A stretch of 39,693 bases of DNA, from positions 1-39,693 of the forward strand of contig JAIBCD010000028.1 of assembly GCA_019694335.1 (NCBI GenBank), in the 5' to 3' direction. This document shows positions 1-24,590 of this stretch, piece after piece (the stretch's first letter is position 1; each line of letters begins with the position of its first letter). The notes below the pieces were generated by a model. The model was given only the letters and a program-made list of their open reading frames with translations, was not told the origin of the DNA and did not search any database. This DNA comes from Rhodospirillaceae bacterium. Lineage in GTDB: Bacteria; Pseudomonadota; Alphaproteobacteria; Rhodospirillales; Rhodospirillaceae. Both the position numbers and the translations under genes were made by a program.

Positions 1-507
1 GCGGGCTTCGGCGGCGGGCGCGGCGGCCGGTTCGGCGGCGCGTGCCCCTGGAATACTGGTGACTTCGGCGACCGGCGCCGGCGCGGGCGCTTCGGCGGCG
101 CGTTTGGCTTCTTCGGCCTTACGCTTGGCTTCTTCCTCGGCTTCGCGCTTGGCGTCTTCCTCGGCCTGCTTGCGATGCTCCTCGTCCGCCTTCATGGCAT
201 CTTGGAGAGCCTTCAGGCGATGCGCCTTCTCGTCGTCGGTGAGGTTGCCGTGTTGCAGGGCTTCCCGGGCCTTGGCGAGCACTTCATCGGCCTTGGTTTT
301 CAGGGTGGCAGGCGCCGCCTTGACTTCCTGCACCTTGCCGTCGGCGCCGATCTCGAACTGGCGCTTCTTCTTGCGCTCGACCTGAACGACCTTGGAGCGG
401 CCGTGCGAGAAGCTCTGGCGGACCTGACCGGATTCCACCGTCTTCTTCAGCTCCAGCTTCCCCTTGCTCAGCGTCAGCGGGGTTTTGGACTTGGTATCGC
501 TCGGCAT
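1..507 (-). CDS. infB: Translation initiation factor IF-2, N-terminal part (cut by window start)
   Basis: Encodes the first 169 residues of IF-2, the GTPase that places initiator tRNA on the 30S subunit; the GTPase and C-terminal domains lie beyond the window. The protein starts MPSDTKSKTPLTLSKGKLEL and contains GQVRQSFSHGRSKVVQVERK, which is the conserved N-terminal block of alphaproteobacterial IF-2. A Glu/Lys/Ala-rich helical segment (AEEDAKREAEEEAKRKAEE) and an Ala/Pro linker follow, as is usual ahead of the G domain. The ATG at 507 opens the frame; no strong Shine-Dalgarno is visible. It is the last gene visible of rimP-nusA-ylxR-infB, 80 bp after ylxR, so it is probably co-transcribed with them. 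The call rests on the N-terminal motif and the operon position. Confidence 0.93.
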   Translation of the reverse strand, partial: MPSDTKSKTPLTLSKGKLELKKTVESGQVRQSFSHGRSKVVQVERKKKRQFEIGADGKVQEVKAAPATLKTKADEVLAKAREALQHGNLTDDEKAHRLKALQDAMKADEEHRKQAEEDAKREAEEEAKRKAEEAKRAAEAPAPAPVAEVTSIPGARAAEPAAAPAAEAR

Positions 508-532
508 GCTGCTCAACTAACCTTGACTGATG

Positions 533-549
533 CGCGCAACTGTTGCGCG
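533..549. repeat. Perfect 8-bp inverted repeat between ylxR and infB
   Basis: CGCGCAAC at 533-540 and GTTGCGCG at 542-549 are perfect inverted copies around one central base. In the transcript this lies about 26 nt before the infB start. It could be an RNA hairpin that tunes infB expression or a dyad bound by protein. No U-run follows it, so it is not an intrinsic terminator. Confidence 0.5.
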
Positions 550-587
550 GCGTGAACTCTCAAAACTCGGCTCGGCCTGTGTTCAGT

Positions 588-17876: not shown

Positions 17877-19127
17877 CTAGCCGGCGAGCAATTCGGCCAC
17901 CGTGCGCGGCGCCTGCGGTTTCTTCGCGCTCGCGTCCTGGAATTCCAGCGCCACCTTGAGCCAGTCGGCGGCGGCGTCCGCGTCGCCGCGCTGGCGCGAT
18001 TCCAATTCCGCCAGCATGCGCGCGGCGCGTGCCCGCACGTCCGGCGTCATGTGCTGCGCGGTCAGGCCCGAGAGGCGGTTGCGCGCCTGTCCCCACAACT
18101 CCGCATTCAAAGCGGCCGCGGCGACCGCGAGCCGGCTCTCGGGATGATCGGGCGCGGCCTTGGCCAGGCCCTCGACCCGCTGCGCCCAGGCGATGGCGGT
18201 CTCGCCCGGCACCAGGCCGCGATAGGCCACGAGCAGATCCGCATGGGGCTGGTCGGCCCAGGCGCGTTCCACGGCATCGGCGGCCTTGGCGCCTTTGCCT
18301 TGCGCCGCCATGGCGTTGGCGAAGGCCACCACCGCCGCGCGGCTTTGCGGGCCGCCCACGCTCATGGCGCGTTTCGCGGCCACGGCGGCTTCGGTGGTGT
18401 TGTTGTGCGCCAGCGCCGCCGCCGAGACACGGACATAGATGTTGGACTTGAGCGCCGCGTGTTCGGCCGGCGTGAAGGCCTGGCGGGCCTCGCGGCTGCC
18501 GATCAGCGCCAGGGCGTCGTCCCAGCGCTCGCGGCTGATGTCGAGGTCGAGCAGCAGGGTGAGCGCCCAGCCGGGCGTGTCGCGCCGCGCCCAGGCGCGC
18601 CGGGCGTAGTCGGCGGCGCTGACCGCGTCGCCGGCGACCAATGCATTCGTCGCCAAGGTGCGCAATCCGGCGAGTTCGGTTTCCGGGCGTTCCAGCATCT
18701 CGCGCGCCGCCGCGTCCACACCCTTGATATTGCCGTTCAGCGCCGCGGCTTCCTTGCGCAATACCAGTACGGCGGAATTGTCCTTGAGCAGACTCGCGGC
18801 TTCGCGCGCGAGGCGGCGTGCGGCCGACGCCTGACCCGCGGCCACCGCCGCGAACCCGTCGCCCAGCGACGTCAGGCCGCGATTGAGCCGCTGCTCGCGG
18901 CGCTGCGCCGCCAGCGCGCGCATGGCGGCGCCGACGATGCCGGCGAGCTTCACGATGAACAGGATCGCGGCCACCAGCACGATGACCGCCGCCACCAGCA
19001 CGCCGACCGAGGTGTCGACCCGCCAGCCATGCCAGGCGAGATGCACGTCGCCCGGATCGTTGGCGAGCCAGACCGCGACCGCTACCAGCAGCGCGACGCC
19101 AAGAACGTAGAGGATCAACCGGCCCAT
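17877..19127 (-). CDS. hemY: HemY-like membrane TPR protein
   Basis: A 416-residue HemY_N-family protein. Two membrane segments (about residues 3-22 and 41-64) precede a long helical TPR-like domain, with segments such as DDALALIGSREARQAFTPAE. It is unrelated to protoporphyrinogen oxidase despite the shared name; its role is a membrane scaffold linked to late haem synthesis. The ATG at 19127 lies only 2 bp after the stop of the HemD-Mic60 gene, so both are co-translated. The order hemD, mic60, hemY is standard in alphaproteobacteria, although here the first two are one gene. Confidence 0.93.
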   Translation of the reverse strand: MGRLILYVLGVALLVAVAVWLANDPGDVHLAWHGWRVDTSVGVLVAAVIVLVAAILFIVKLAGIVGAAMRALAAQRREQRLNRGLTSLGDGFAAVAAGQASAARRLAREAASLLKDNSAVLVLRKEAAALNGNIKGVDAAAREMLERPETELAGLRTLATNALVAGDAVSAADYARRAWARRDTPGWALTLLLDLDISRERWDDALALIGSREARQAFTPAEHAALKSNIYVRVSAAALAHNNTTEAAVAAKRAMSVGGPQSRAAVVAFANAMAAQGKGAKAADAVERAWADQPHADLLVAYRGLVPGETAIAWAQRVEGLAKAAPDHPESRLAVAAAALNAELWGQARNRLSGLTAQHMTPDVRARAARMLAELESRQRGDADAAADWLKVALEFQDASAKKPQAPRTVAELLAG

Positions 19128-19129
19128 GG

Positions 19130-22100
19130 TCAGTTTCTCGGCTTGTCGCCGGATGCGGCGACGCCAGCGATGGCCTTGGTGATGGTGTCGGCCAGCACGT
19201 GTTCGGCGGCGAGGCGCGCTTTGGCGGGCCCGGTCCACGGCGCGGCCGCTTCGGCGGCGGCGCCCCGCAAACCGTCCATTTCCGCCACGGCGCCCGCGAG
19301 ATCGTTCTGCGCCATGCGGCTTTCCGCCCGGGCGGTGATCGCCCAGGCGCTGGAGCCTTCCGCGGCGGCGTCGACGCGGCGGATGGTGACGAGCGACATG
19401 ATCCGGTCCAGCACGCGGCGCAGCCAGCCCGCCGTGTCGTCCGGTACCGCCGCGGCGCGCACAGCCGCCGCTGCCGCGGCATCGAACCGGCCGCGCAGGT
19501 CCGGCAGTGTTGGCAAGCCCGCGGCGGCGTAACCCGCGAAGGCGCTGTCGTCGATGGAGGCGCCGGCGCGCACGGCGATGGCCTTGGCGGTTTCCAGTTC
19601 CAACGCGAACGGACGCCCGGATGCCAATGCGTTCTGCCATTGGCCCAGCGCCATGACGTAGGCGGCCGCGACCGCTTGGGCGCCGGCGGCGGAGCGCCCG
19701 GCGTTCTCCAGGCCATTCACGCGTTCGGTCAGGGACAACACGCTATTCGCGTCGGCGGTTTTACCTTCCAGGGTGTTCAGGCGTTTGTTCAATTCATCCA
19801 GGCGCGCCGCATTGCCGATGGCTGCTTCCAAGGTCGCGACCCGCGCGCTGAGCGCCGCGACCTGCCGGCCTTGATTGGTCAACGCTTCGGGTTCGGCGGA
19901 AATGGCCTGGGGCGGAACAGCGCCCGGGGGCGCAGCGGGTCCGGCCGGACGCGCGGCGGCCTTTTCCTCGAGAGACTGAAGACGCGCGGTCAGGGCCGCC
20001 ACATCGTCGGTTTTGGCCGGGGCCGGTTGCGCAGCCGGAACCGGTTCCGGCGCGCGTGTGAATTTCGGCAGCCAGGAGGACGAGGTGAAATAGGCGCCGC
20101 CCGTCAGTAACACCAACAGCAGGAACAACAGCGGCGTGCGGCTGCGGCGGCGTGGCGCGGGGGCCGGCGGTGCTTCGCGGCGTTCGGTTTCGGTGGCTGT
20201 CTCGCCGCCGTCGCCGAAGCTGTAATTGCGGAACCTCTGGCCGCGCGCCTTGTCGTCGGCGGCATCTTCCGCCAGCAGCCGCGCCGCGCGGCCGCCACGG
20301 ATGCTCTCGGCCGAACGAATCGGCGCCGCACCCGATGTCTCGAAGCCCGATTTCTCGAAGCCCGATGTCTCGGGGGCGATATCTTCGGGCGTCGGGCTGG
20401 TGGGTTCAGGGCTCATGGGCTCTTCTGTATCCAATCTGGGTGAAGGTTCGGCGGGCGTTGTGGCCGGTTCGCTTCCCGGATCGGGTTCGGGTGGATCCCT
20501 TGGCGGAGGACCGGACGCTATTGTAGCGGAAGCCGGCGTGGGCGCGACACTGGGCTGCGGCGGCTCCGGAAGCGCCGCGGGCATGGCCTCTTCCGGCGCG
20601 CGGATCATGGCCCAGGATGGCCGTGCCGGCGCGGCGACATCGGTGGTGGGCGCGGCGAGCCAGGATTCCATCCAGGCGCGCAATCCGCCAGAGCGAGGGG
20701 CCGGCGCTTCCGCTAGGGCTGCGCTTTCCCGGGCCGCGTCTTCCAAACGCTGCTGCGCGCGGTTCGCGTCGCGCGCGGCGCGGGCTTGTTCGTCCGCGAT
20801 GCGCTTGCGTTCGGCTTCCTCGGCGGCGGCTTGTGCGCGGGCTTGGCGTGCCTTTTCGTCGGCCTCGCGTTTTGCGGCGTCGCGTGCTTCGTCTTCCAGG
20901 CGTTGCTGTTCACGTTTGGCCTCGCGCGCGACGCGGGCTTGTTCTTCCGCGACGCGCTTGCGTTCGGCGTCTTCCTTGGCGGCCTGTTCGCGCGCGGCGC
21001 GCTCACGCTCCCTGGTTTCCTTGCGGACGCGGTCCTCTTCCGTCTGGGCCTCGCGCAAGGCTCTGTCGCTGGCCGCCAGCGCGGCGGCCGTGGCCGCGGC
21101 CGCGGCCAGCCGGGCGGCGGTGATGGCCTCCTGCTCGGCGGCGCGCGCCTGGGCCAAGGCATCCTGCTTGCGCCGCTCTTCCTCCTCGGCGGCGGCTTTC
21201 AGGCGCGCACGTTCGGCGTCCATGCGGCGTTGTTCGTCCAGGCGCCGCGCCTCGTCCGCCGCGGCTTGTTCGCGCGCCAGGCGCTGTTCCTCGGCGCGGG
21301 CCGCGGCGCGCGCGGCGCGTTCGCCGGCGATTCGCGTGGCTTCCTCCGCCTCCAACCGTTCGCTGAGAACGCGTTCCTGGGCGGCGAATTCGGCCTGGGC
21401 GCGCTTGCGGTCCTGGACCGACAAGGCCAGGCGCTCACGCGCCGCCTGTTCGCGGGCGAATTTTTCATCCAGGGCGGCGCGGCGGGCCGCGTCCTCCGCC
21501 GCCAGCCGCGCGGCTTCAGCGGCGCGTTTGGCCTTTTCTTCCGCGATGCGTTTCTCGCGTTCGATGCGTTCCTGCGCGGCGCGTTCGCGCGCGATTCGCT
21601 CGCGTTCCTCGCGCGCCAATCGTTCCTTTTCATCGGCCGCGCGCTTGGCTGTTGCGCGGGCCTCGCTTTCCAGCCGCTGCCGCTCACGTTCGGCGCGTGC
21701 CTGTTCTTCGGCGATGCGTTTGCGTTCGGCTTCGTCCTTGGCGGCCAATTCACGAGCTTCCCGCGCCTTCTCGTCGGCCTCGCGTTTGGCGGCCGTACGG
21801 GCTTCATCTTCCAAGCGTTGCTGCTCGCGCTTGGCTTCGCGCTCGGCGCGCGCCTGTTCTTCGGCAATGCGTTTGCGCTCAGCTTCTTCTTTGGCGGCCT
21901 GTTCCCGCGCGATGCGGGCCTTCTCGTCGGCCTCGCGTTTGGCGGCCGCACGGGCTTCGTCTTCCAGGCGTTGCTGCTCGCGCTTGGCTTCGCGCTCGGC
22001 GCGCGCCTGTTCTTCGGCGATGCGTTTGCGTTCGGCTTCGTCCTTGGCGGCCAATTCACGAGCTTCCCGCGCCTTCTCGTCGGCCTCGCGTTTGGCGGCC

Positions 22101-23353
22101 GCACGGGCTTCGTCTTCCAGGCGTTGCTGCTTGCGCTTGGCTTCGCGCTCGGCGCGCGCTTGTTCTTCGGCGATGCGTTTGCGCTCAGCTTCTTCTTTGG
22201 CGGCCTGTTCCCGCGCGATGCGGGCTTTCTCGTCGGCTTCGCGCTTGGCGGCCGCGCGCGCCTCGTCCTCCAGGCGCTGCTGTTCGCGTTTGGCCTCGCG
22301 TTCAGCGCGCGCCTGTTCTTCGGCGATACGCTTGCGCTCGGCGTCCTCCTTGGCGGCCTGTTCACGGGCGAGCCGTTCGCGCTCCCTGGCCTCCTGCTCG
22401 GCCTTGGCCTTGGCTTCCCGTTCGGCGCGGGCCTGTTCCTCGGCAAGGCGCTTGCGTTCCGCCGCTTTGTCGCCCGCCTCTTTCGCCAGGCGTTCCTGTT
22501 CGGCGCGCTCCGCGGTGCGGCGTTTGGCGTCCGCTTCGCGTTGTGCGATCTCCGCCGCGCGCGCGGCTTCGGCGGCGCGCTGGCGCTCCTCTTCTTCACG
22601 GGCCCGGGCGGCAGCCGCGGCGCGGCTCTCTTCAACTTTGTCCACCAACGCGCCGTCGAGCTGCGCACCCACCTCGTCGAGTGTGCCACCTGCGGTCACG
22701 GTCACGCCCTTGAATTTGAGGGCGCGCAACGGCGCGGCCACCACCGGCGACGCCGCCACCGCCGCGAGGCCCGCCACGGCGCCGTCCAGCTTCTCCTGCT
22801 GGACCAGGGCCACGAAGGCGCGCGCCTCCTCGGGCGACAGGAACACGGCGGCGTCGAAGGCCTTGTCGCGTAATCCGGCTGCAATGTCGGCCGGCAACGC
22901 ATTCGCGCGCTTGAGGCTGTAAAGCGGCAGCGGCCTAAGCGCGAAACCCATGTTGCCGAGCAGCGCGCCGAGATTGGTGGGCGGGCCGTTGTGGCAGGCG
23001 TGGATCAGGGCGCCATGCGAGGGCTTCACGCTGCGCTCGACCAGGCGCGCGAGATCGGCGGTGTCGTCCTTGGCGACGCTCACCTGCTTGAAACCGAGCG
23101 TCGTCAGCAGTGCAGCGGTGGCTTCGCTGTCGGTGAACACCGGAAAGGTGCGTACGCCGATATTGTCGGCCAGGGCCCGGGCGCCCTCGCCGCCTGTGAC
23201 CACGAAGCCTTGGGCGGCGCTGAGGTTGATCTTCGGGTTGGGCAGCCGTTCCGCGGTCAGCAGGGGCGCCGCCACCACCTCATGACCACGCGCCGTCAGC
23301 GCCGCGGCGGTGGCCGCGGCGTCCTGCGCCGGCTGGGTGATCAGAATGCGCAT
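19130..23353 (-). CDS. Fusion: HemD-like domain, giant charged helix, membrane span, Mic60 (mitofilin) domain
   Basis: A 1407-residue protein in one uninterrupted frame. Residues 1-235 resemble uroporphyrinogen-III synthase (MRILITQPAQDAAATAAAL start; GFVVTGGEGARAL; AVFLSPEEARAFVALV). Residues about 238-885 are almost pure Glu/Arg/Lys/Ala/Gln helix with 51-residue repeats. Residues 890-1005 are a Pro/Ser/Glu linker. TPLLFLLLVLLTGGAYF at 1073-1089, after PAPRRRSR, is a membrane span oriented by positives inside. Residues 1115-1220 are a second coiled coil and 1225-1405 the Mic60 domain (LASGRPFALELETAKAI, GLPTLPDLRGRF, IMSLVTIRRVD). Topology is inferred as a cytoplasmic N-terminus and periplasmic mitofilin part. 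Separate hemD and mic60 genes are the norm; hemY follows 2 bp later. Enzyme activity of the HemD domain is doubtful. Confidence 0.88.
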   Translation of the reverse strand: MRILITQPAQDAAATAAALTARGHEVVAAPLLTAERLPNPKINLSAAQGFVVTGGEGARALADNIGVRTFPVFTDSEATAALLTTLGFKQVSVAKDDTADLARLVERSVKPSHGALIHACHNGPPTNLGALLGNMGFALRPLPLYSLKRANALPADIAAGLRDKAFDAAVFLSPEEARAFVALVQQEKLDGAVAGLAAVAASPVVAAPLRALKFKGVTVTAGGTLDEVGAQLDGALVDKVEESRAAAAARAREEEERQRAAEAARAAEIAQREADAKRRTAERAEQERLAKEAGDKAAERKRLAEEQARAEREAKAKAEQEARERERLAREQAAKEDAERKRIAEEQARAEREAKREQQRLEDEARAAAKREADEKARIAREQAAKEEAERKRIAEEQARAEREAKRKQQRLEDEARAAAKREADEKAREARELAAKDEAERKRIAEEQARAEREAKREQQRLEDEARAAAKREADEKARIAREQAAKEEAERKRIAEEQARAEREAKREQQRLEDEARTAAKREADEKAREARELAAKDEAERKRIAEEQARAERERQRLESEARATAKRAADEKERLAREERERIARERAAQERIEREKRIAEEKAKRAAEAARLAAEDAARRAALDEKFAREQAARERLALSVQDRKRAQAEFAAQERVLSERLEAEEATRIAGERAARAAARAEEQRLAREQAAADEARRLDEQRRMDAERARLKAAAEEEERRKQDALAQARAAEQEAITAARLAAAAATAAALAASDRALREAQTEEDRVRKETRERERAAREQAAKEDAERKRVAEEQARVAREAKREQQRLEDEARDAAKREADEKARQARAQAAAEEAERKRIADEQARAARDANRAQQRLEDAARESAALAEAPAPRSGGLRAWMESWLAAPTTDVAAPARPSWAMIRAPEEAMPAALPEPPQPSVAPTPASATIASGPPPRDPPEPDPGSEPATTPAEPSPRLDTEEPMSPEPTSPTPEDIAPETSGFEKSGFETSGAAPIRSAESIRGGRAARLLAEDAADDKARGQRFRNYSFGDGGETATETERREAPPAPAPRRRSRTPLLFLLLVLLTGGAYFTSSSWLPKFTRAPEPVPAAQPAPAKTDDVAALTARLQSLEEKAAARPAGPAAPPGAVPPQAISAEPEALTNQGRQVAALSARVATLEAAIGNAARLDELNKRLNTLEGKTADANSVLSLTERVNGLENAGRSAAGAQAVAAAYVMALGQWQNALASGRPFALELETAKAIAVRAGASIDDSAFAGYAAAGLPTLPDLRGRFDAAAAAAVRAAAVPDDTAGWLRRVLDRIMSLVTIRRVDAAAEGSSAWAITARAESRMAQNDLAGAVAEMDGLRGAAAEAAAPWTGPAKARLAAEHVLADTITKAIAGVAASGDKPRN
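21728..22339 (-). repeat. Four tandem 153-bp coding repeats (51 residues each)
   Basis: Residues 339-389, 390-440, 441-491 and 492-542 of the HemD-Mic60 fusion are near-identical 51-residue units beginning ERKRIAEEQARAERE. Units 1 and 3 end IAREQAAKEEA, while 2 and 4 end EARELAAKDEA, so a 306-bp pair was duplicated. Comparing 21721-21880 with 22027-22186 I count 6 mismatches in 160 bases. Truncated or diverged copies occur at residues 299-338, 543-560, 797-847 and 848-880. Confidence 0.92.
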
Positions 23354-23537
23354 TCAACGTGCTCTATGCTTATCTATTGGAGTGTTGTAGAGGCTGGCCG
23401 CCGCGTGTCCAGGAAAAGTGGCAGCCGGTTTTCCGTCAGGACGCGCGTCAAAACAATAACTTAGCGAGGAATGGCCGCGGTCGTTCCGCGCCAAGCCCGT
23501 AAAGCGCTGCAGGCGCCGCTAACCCACTGGAAATGCA

Positions 23538-24590
23538 TTGTTAGTTCTCGGGATTGAGACCAGCTGCGACGAGACCGCCGCCGCCGTCGTGGACGGCGAC
23601 GGCAAGGTGCGCGCCCAGGCGGTTTTGAGCCAGATCGCTGAACACCAGCCTTACGGCGGCATCGTGCCCGAGATCGCCGCCCGGGCGCACCTGTCGCACC
23701 TGGACCGCCTGATCGCCAAGGCCATGGCTGACGCGAAGGTGGAATACGCCGATCTGAGCGCGGTCGCCGCCACGGCCGGGCCGGGGTTGATCGGCGGGGT
23801 GATCGTGGGGGTGATGACCGCCAAGGCCATTGCCATGGTGCACGGCGTTCCGTTCATCGCGGTCAATCACCTGGAGGGCCACGCCCTCACCGCGCGGTTC
23901 ACCGACGGCGTGCAGTTTCCTTATCTCCTGCTCCTGGTGTCCGGCGGCCATTGCCAGCTTCTGGTGGTGGAAGGCGTCGGGCGTTTTCGCCGCCTCGGCA
24001 CCACCATGGATGACGCGGCCGGGGAAGCCTTCGACAAGGTCGCCAAGCTCATTGGCCTGGGTTATCCGGGTGGACCCGCCATCGAACGCGCGGCGCGCGA
24101 TGGCGATGCGGCGCGGTTTGCGTTCCCGCGCCCGCTCAAGGGCAGGCCGGGGTGCGATTTTTCCTTCTCCGGCCTCAAGACGGCGGTGCGCGTCGCCGCC
24201 GAGGCCTTGCCGGAAATGACGGAGCAAGACGTGGCCGACCTCGCCGCCGGATTCCAAGCGGCGCTGGTGGACTCCACGGCGGATCGGGTCGCGCGCGCCA
24301 TCGCGCAGTTTCGCACTGACTATCCCGGGGGCAGGACCTTGGTCGCCTCCGGCGGTGTCGCAGCCAACACGGCCTTGCGTGCGGCGCTGACGGCGGTGAG
24401 CAAAAAGAACGGCCTCTCGTTCGTGGCGCCGCCGGTGGCGTTATGCACCGACAATGCCGTGATGATCGCCTGGGCCGGGGCCGAGCGCTTGAAGCTGGGG
24501 CTGGTGGATGGGCTGGATATCAAGCCGCGCCCGCGCTGGCCGCTCGATCCCGCCGCCGTGCCGGTGCGCGGCGCGGGCGTTAAAGCCTGA
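23538..24590 (+). CDS. tsaD: tRNA N6-adenosine threonylcarbamoyltransferase TsaD
   Basis: TsaD transfers the threonylcarbamoyl group to A37 of ANN-decoding tRNAs, with TsaB as partner. The 350-residue protein has [15 protein letters not shown] at the N-terminus, the metal-binding NHLEGH with His111 and His115, [20 protein letters not shown] and [12 protein letters not shown]. The start is a TTG at 23538 ([10 protein letters not shown]); the ATG at 23533 is out of frame and stops after three codons. The gene diverges from hemD-mic60, a common arrangement, but the gene usually between them, hemC, is absent. Confidence 0.96.

Follow-up and report, generated by a model that had tools for sequence, protein, structure and literature searches.

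A rod-bearing Mic60 fusion with a diverged HemD-derived head in a clade of Rhodospirillaceae

Introduction

PMC12136173 presents Mic60 as the part of the crista organizer that mitochondria inherited from their alphaproteobacterial ancestor, and attributes to other Mic60 proteins membrane bending and localization to crista or ICM junctions. Alphaproteobacterial mic60 adjoins haem genes, and PMC7641849 describes an operon of the order tsaD / hemC-hemD-mic60-hemY with a mitofilin-like HemX homologue; this was the one paper found that describes a tsaD / hemC-HEM4-mic60-hemY locus. Fusions within this group are also modelled, as the NCBIfam entry NF005411 (fused HemD/HemX, 660 positions) by its name joins a HemD domain to a HemX-type membrane protein. 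To our knowledge, it is not understood why mic60 adjoins haem genes. Alphaproteobacterial Mic60 corresponds to COG4223. Single alpha-helix (SAH) domains average about 75 residues and reach about 200 in the longest myosin SAH, according to PMC5378345.

Here we describe a protein in which a HemD-derived head is carried on a long charged rod by Mic60. Among the papers listed by full-text searches, which covered neither preprints nor most subscription papers, none named a rod-bearing, decoupled HemD–Mic60 fusion, and a full-text query for Mic60 together with HemD and alphaproteobacteria returned 0 papers.

A 1407-residue fusion of a HEM4 domain to Mic60

The window, that is, the whole stretch of DNA analysed here (39,693 nucleotides of contig JAIBCD010000028.1, assembly GCA_019694335.1), belongs to a Rhodospirillaceae genome of 228 contigs, termed G000. 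An earlier note made from the letters alone had described one 1407-codon frame running from a HemD-like domain through a rod, a linker and a membrane span to Mic60, with hemY starting 2 bp later. We confirmed the frame, which runs on the minus strand, left unstated in the note, from 23353 to 19130 (ATG to TGA), as well as the distance to hemY, and Pfam and hydropathy bore out the domain order. The features of the locus are as follows.

19130..23353, minus strand: whole fusion gene, 1407 residues, with HEM4-B head, rod, linker, span and mitofilin domain
22676..23353, minus strand: HEM4-derived head (class B), residues 1–226, from the Pfam HEM4 match and the class B signature
20705..22651, minus strand: Glu/Arg/Lys/Ala rod, residues ~235–883, from charge pairs, ERK length and Pro/Gly-free runs
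21690..22375, minus strand: tandem repeat of 153 bp (51 residues), 4.5 copies, within the rod
20312..20704, minus strand: Pro-rich cytoplasmic linker, residues ~884–1014, probably disordered, judged from its sequence
20234..20296, minus strand: juxtamembrane motif GGRAARLLAEDAADDKARGQR, residues 1020–1040
20081..20137, minus strand: single membrane span, residues ~1073–1091, predicted N-in, from hydropathy and RRRSR on its N-terminal side
19193..19801, minus strand: Mitofilin (Mic60) C-terminal domain, residues 1185–1387 (Pfam), periplasmic by topology
17877..19127, minus strand: hemY, start at 19127, 2 bp downstream of the fusion stop (Pfam HemY_N)
23354..23537, no strand: divergent intergenic region of 184 bp, without the hemC that occupies this place in the ancestral order
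23538..24590, plus strand: tsaD, divergent neighbour and landmark of the locus

The HEM4 domain (PF02602) spans residues 14–220 with an E-value of 2.3e-21 and 76.4 bits, against a curated cut-off of 27.5, and the match covers profile positions 2–221 of 231. The Mitofilin domain (PF09731; residues 1185–1387) scored 44.7 bits (E 1.3e-11) against a cut-off of 27.4, and no further Pfam domain was found in the 1407-residue protein at E≤0.01. The best hydrophobic 17-mer is at residues 1075–1091. Because RRRSR immediately precedes it, the positive-inside rule predicts an N-in span, so that, judging from hydropathy and these arginines, the protein would have the arrangement expected of a Mic60, with one N-in span ahead of the mitofilin domain. 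As the earlier note had stated, the span of ordinary Mic60 lies near the N terminus: most unfused frames start it at residue 36–99, with exceptions at 133 and 190. Of the 25 class B proteins defined below, 15 contain RLLAEDAAD, the core of the juxtamembrane motif, compared with 0 of 36 other Mic60-matching frames scanned.

We named the gene at 23538..24590 tsaD from its sequence and used it as the tsaD query in relatives. The hemC gene of the window's genome sits elsewhere and adjoins hemE. Plus-strand frames of 898 and 695 residues overlap the same repeats and were taken as by-products of composition. At the end of the window (1–560, minus strand), the contig stops inside a probably ordinary gene with short Lys/Glu/Ala repeats, the start of which resembles what we take to be translation initiation factor IF-2.

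A rod with the charge pattern of single alpha-helices

By an in-house window rule, the ERK-rich stretch of the window protein comprises 654 residues, with long runs free of Pro and Gly at 235–293, 295–676 and 678–883. In residues 236–895, opposite charges are paired at i+4 173 times, about 8 SD above the roughly 91 pairs found in shuffled sequences, and these are split evenly between acidic-to-basic (87) and basic-to-acidic (86) pairs (46 and 45 in shuffles). Same-charge i+4 pairs number 37, about 8 SD below the 91 ± 7 of the shuffles. This pairing, together with an LIVMF content of 8%, is what is found in ER/K helices, and as far as sequence can tell, the charge pattern of the rod is that of a single alpha-helix. 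The rod is 98 nm long if it forms one continuous helix at 0.15 nm per residue, an upper length that supports the roughly 100 nm, likewise conditional on continuity, given in the earlier note.

The hydrophobic residues form a stripe with a period of 51/14 = 3.64 residues (power 9.9, against a 95th percentile of 3.25 in shuffles), which fits a 51-residue repeat spanning 14 helical turns and makes a weak right-handed pairing of rods possible. No heptad signal at 3.5 was seen in the rod hydrophobics, and a classical heptad coiled coil was rejected on this ground.

One possible explanation for the rod is that it is a fast-expanding low-complexity tract whose length has no function, so that only the head and Mic60 matter. 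The 153-bp tandem repeats would fit such an origin, as would the wide differences in length and the linkers of sister genera, which are (PE)n, Pro/Glu-rich, disordered or short instead of an ERK rod. However, the i/i+4 pairs lie about 8 SD from shuffles in the window protein (opposite-charge above, same-charge below), its 660 residues contain no more than 2 Pro and 4 Gly, and each of the 16 class B frames extending to the span has 371–679 ERK-rich residues, with opposite i+4 pairs outnumbering same-charge pairs 3.5- to 15-fold. We therefore regard a functionless length as decidedly unlikely. The ERK rod was found in 0 of 14 class A fusions, to which we now turn.

Recurrence of the fusion and classes of HEM4

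We searched the same 61 genomes for Mitofilin and for HEM4 and retrieved 97 surrounding stretches. Two genomes (G036 and G042) had no HEM4 above the cut-off. The copies at ancestral-type loci, which have the gene order of PMC7641849, are termed class A and number 35 in 34 genomes. At these loci hemC adjoins HEM4 in 33 of 35 cases, and the remaining two are truncated by the end of their contig. The retrieved stretch includes tsaD in 29 of 35. HEM4 and Mic60 lie in one frame at 14 of the 35 loci, as judged from equal frame lengths, and these frames measure 557–1066 residues from stop to stop. The earlier note held that hemD and mic60 are usually separate genes in alphaproteobacteria. The 14 fused loci call for a correction of its view of the fusion, and the idea that the fusion is unique to the window's organism was rejected for the same reason. 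The joining of HEM4 to Mic60 is thus itself ordinary in the order, and what is new is the rod and the apparently re-purposed head.

In this sample, class B, to which the window's head belongs, occurs in 25 genomes, namely the full set of 19 from the genus and a single representative of each of g2, g3, g5, g7, g9 and g18. At all 25 class B loci, tsaD adjoins HEM4 with no hemC between. Head, rod and Mic60 share one frame in 13 of the 19 genus genomes, including other species, which answers the question of whether relatives have the same domain order; G016 is counted among them with its Mic60 part located by tblastn rather than Pfam. Among the other six, the contigs of G010, G013 and G018 stop within the rod, the frames of G009 and G017 are interrupted, and the head of G011 begins out of frame. 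A scan of a genome collection gave 32 loci with tsaD upstream in all 32; every one of these records is a MAG or uncultured, and most of the assemblies are those already treated above. Mic60 was in frame at 20; the other 12 comprised 7 running off the contig and 5 interrupted. Among the 20, 14 carried 371–681 ERK-rich residues and 6 carried none, having (PE)n, Pro/Glu-rich or short linkers.

These counts bear on whether separate hemD and mic60 genes were joined by misassembly through the repeats. In favour of such an artefact, all named relatives are MAG or uncultured records, and of the 19 genus genomes, 3 have a contig that stops inside the rod and 3 more have interrupted frames. Against this stand the single frame in 13 of 19 genus genomes, from records whose names suggest several sampling projects, and the repeat-free fusion at 14 of 35 class A loci. 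We consider an artefact highly improbable and exclude assembly error as the source of the fusion, although long reads could still alter the length of the rod, with the fusion itself standing.

A second HEM4 gene, class C, is present in 22 of the 25 class B genomes compared with 0 of the 34 class A genomes, and hemB adjoins it in 22 of 22. It was not found in G017 (76% complete), G018 (89%) or G024 (99%). The gene order hemC–class C–hemB is seen in G019 (g2), G022 (g5), G065 and G066 (g7) and G089 (g3). In a HEM4 tree, classes A and C together split from B and D with a support of 100, in a quick method with SH-aLRT only and an arbitrary root; long-branch effects may explain where C falls within A. 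Partial G035 copies were excluded from the tree and the residue tables, and G011 entered the alignment without the first part of its head.

Class D is a third HEM4 gene (frames of 274–307 residues) in 5 of the 19 genus genomes, exemplified by L146:2941-3753 (plus strand) and found also in G007, G009, G011, G017 and perhaps G088. Its best NCBIfam match was PRK07239, under the cut-off of that model; in G001 it lies near genes that we take, by names given from sequence, to be of cobalamin type. In G093 (L232, g2), Mic60 and hemY are kept at the locus and no HEM4 is detectable there. Several records among loci L161–L192 carry the label 'Candidatus Marinimicrobia', probably by mistake, given that related records bear the name Rhodospirillaceae or Alphaproteobacteria.

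Divergence and selection in the fused head

Classes A and C have 21 columns in common that are conserved at ≥80% in each, and in class B conservation drops below 50% at 12 of these. R8, V76-G77, D128, R142, R176 and P224 are kept in only 0–8% of 23–24 class B heads. The excess of loss in the columns shared by A and C over those conserved in A only (12 of 21 versus 22 of 51) was not significant (Fisher p 0.31), so the argument depends on which residues were lost; the shared ones may be catalytic. Class B has a signature of its own, comprising 24 columns conserved at ≥85% in B and <20% in A, a few of which are common to C. A profile of 23 of the 35 class A copies matched four HemD structures, namely 1jr2 (the best, E 8.3e-7), 9i49, 4es6 and 3mw8. 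A profile of 22 of the 25 class B heads matched no HemD structure, its only match being an alphaRep at 0.06.

The fused HEM4 is under purifying selection. By the Nei–Gojobori method, run with an in-house script, dN/dS of HEM4-B was 0.06–0.25 in six genus pairs, several of them with dS >1, compared with 0.11–0.25 for the Mic60 end, and it lay at or under the value of the Mic60 end in five of the six. Within g7, HEM4-B gave 0.10 and 0.13 in two pairs, a third being saturated.

One alternative is that the head, though divergent, continues to work as a uroporphyrinogen-III synthase and that the fusion places this step near membrane-bound haem enzymes. The HEM4 profile still scores 80 bits in the window, hemY is still the next gene, and class B keeps Y146 in 22 of 24 heads (and T54 in 21 of 23). 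Class C, the candidate for the working HemD, reached only 22 bits against the NCBIfam HemD models, worse than the 74.5 bits of the class B head against the HemD equivalog NF006621 (cut-off 223); the case for class C as the working enzyme thus depends on its gene context and kept residues. The shortfall of class B against NF006621 is itself weak evidence, because an ancestral-type copy, that of G039 (without its first residues), also falls under the cut-off at 107. These points are opposed by the absence of hemC from 25 of 25 class B loci, by the loss of residues common to A and C, and by the position of class C beside hemB in 22 of 22 cases, with hemC in addition in some g2, g3, g5 and g7 genomes.

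Another possibility is that the head senses tetrapyrroles, binding a haem precursor or imported haem unconverted and signalling across the membrane to Mic60 or HemY. It descends from a binder of a linear tetrapyrrole, its new signature is conserved and under selection, and a cell without hemB or hemC would presumably still need imported haem. However, class B has lost nearly all of the charged residues that A and C have in common (R8, D128, R142 and R176), and a sensor does not obviously require a 100-nm spacer. We regard such a sensor as quite unlikely.

The fused head in genomes without detectable hemB or hemC

Two g7 genomes, G024 (99% complete) and G064 (98%), gave no match for hemB, hemC or class C HEM4; as everywhere in this work, these absences rest on MAGs. 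In G024 the fusion is intact, with head, linker and Mic60 in one 1316-residue frame, and the dN/dS of its HEM4-B was 0.10 against its congener G065. In G064 (L223) the head is broken, because its HEM4 contains both a frame change and a stop; the two HEM4 pieces, in different frames, are 75–76% identical to G024, and Mic60 lies in yet another frame. Only G024 therefore counts as an intact fusion without detected hemB or hemC. The broken G064 head may reflect decay after pathway loss, which would favour an active enzyme, or poor assembly; the fusion of G065, a MAG with hemB and hemC, is also interrupted. Because hemC–class C–hemB forms one locus in congeners, a single assembly gap could mimic the loss.

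For ferrochelatase, G024 had one match below the cut-off, G022 and G065 likewise had only sub-cutoff matches, and G064 had none. The genes hemE and hemF were absent from all g2, g5 and g7 genomes tried, save for a weak hemF match in G065, so their absence from G024 adds little. G019, G022, G093 and G065–G067 have hemB and hemC matches and no hemE, with hemF only weakly matched in G065; such genomes may be limited to producing sirohaem or cobalamin, or may reach haem by a different route. Photosynthetic membranes were rejected as the setting of the fusion, as no reaction-centre gene was matched in the 19 genus genomes.

The whole fusion in G024 adds to the points against an active synthase, to be set beside the broken head of G064, and we consider it unlikely that the head still performs this step. 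On the sequence evidence, the class B head has probably ceased to act as a haem enzyme. Given the departure of hemC from the locus, the second HEM4 beside hemB, the loss of shared residues and the intact G024 copy, the view of the earlier note that the fusion tethers a haem-pathway domain is not supported.

Discussion

The explanation that we propose, at roughly even chances, is that Mic60 serves as the anchor of a long-reach tether, holding a HemD-derived pseudoenzyme head on a rod. A single span would anchor Mic60 in the cytoplasmic membrane and leave the mitofilin domain on the periplasmic side, and the cytoplasmic N terminus would derive from the HemD enzyme encoded next door, which became fused to Mic60 in an ancestor. 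Within one clade of the family, another HEM4 protein, encoded beside hemB, would have taken over the pathway task, and hemC left the operon. The fused HEM4 lost the shared residues and would have gained a new conserved surface, becoming a binding head. In several genera, a predicted ER/K-type helical rod of ~370–680 residues stands behind the head, measuring ~55–100 nm if continuous. Mic60 would fix the base at a site of curved membrane or envelope contact, membrane bending by this Mic60 being ascribed to it by family, and the rod would project the head far into the cytoplasm, so that it could capture a putative partner there. Long spacers of differing sequence type in several genera favour reach over chemistry, with g5 as an exception that has almost no spacer.

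A more specific version of this tether, which we find doubtful, makes Mic60 a novel type of bacterial membrane organizer, an outrigger of about 100 nm in the cytoplasm, the head of which would dock on a cytoplasmic structure such as the nucleoid, a storage body, a further membrane or another Mic60 site, with helix length setting the spacing. If that were so, the Pro-Glu or disordered spacers of sister genera would serve the same purpose. A continuous rod would amount to a molecular ruler on a membrane-shaping protein. A head that is apparently off haem synthesis and yet kept on Mic60 separates 'HemD for haem' from 'HemD for Mic60', a distinction that is testable.

The locus is closest to that of alphaproteobacterial Mic60 (PF09731), where a hemC-hemD-mic60-hemY operon lies head to head with tsaD-gpsA; the locus, the span and the mitofilin domain are alike, whereas the present locus lacks hemC and has a fused, diverged hemD together with an inserted giant rod on the cytoplasmic side. 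With uroporphyrinogen-III synthase (HemD, PF02602) the head is homologous over nearly the whole domain, but class B has lost residues shared by the ancestral and hemB-linked copies, has a new signature and is intact in G024, which gave no match for hemB or hemC. The rod resembles the ER/K single alpha-helix domains of myosins in its i/i+4 acid–base pairing, few hydrophobics and putative spacer role, and differs from those described in PMC5378345 in its 654 residues, and in its weak hydrophobic stripe. The 14 class A fusions resemble the fused HemD/HemX of NF005411 and have no rod; the window protein gave no match to that model, which in this work matched a class D protein alone, and weakly (40 bits, cut-off 414). 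HemD/HemX fusions and the operon were already known, and what is new is the rod and a head that appears to be decoupled from haem synthesis.
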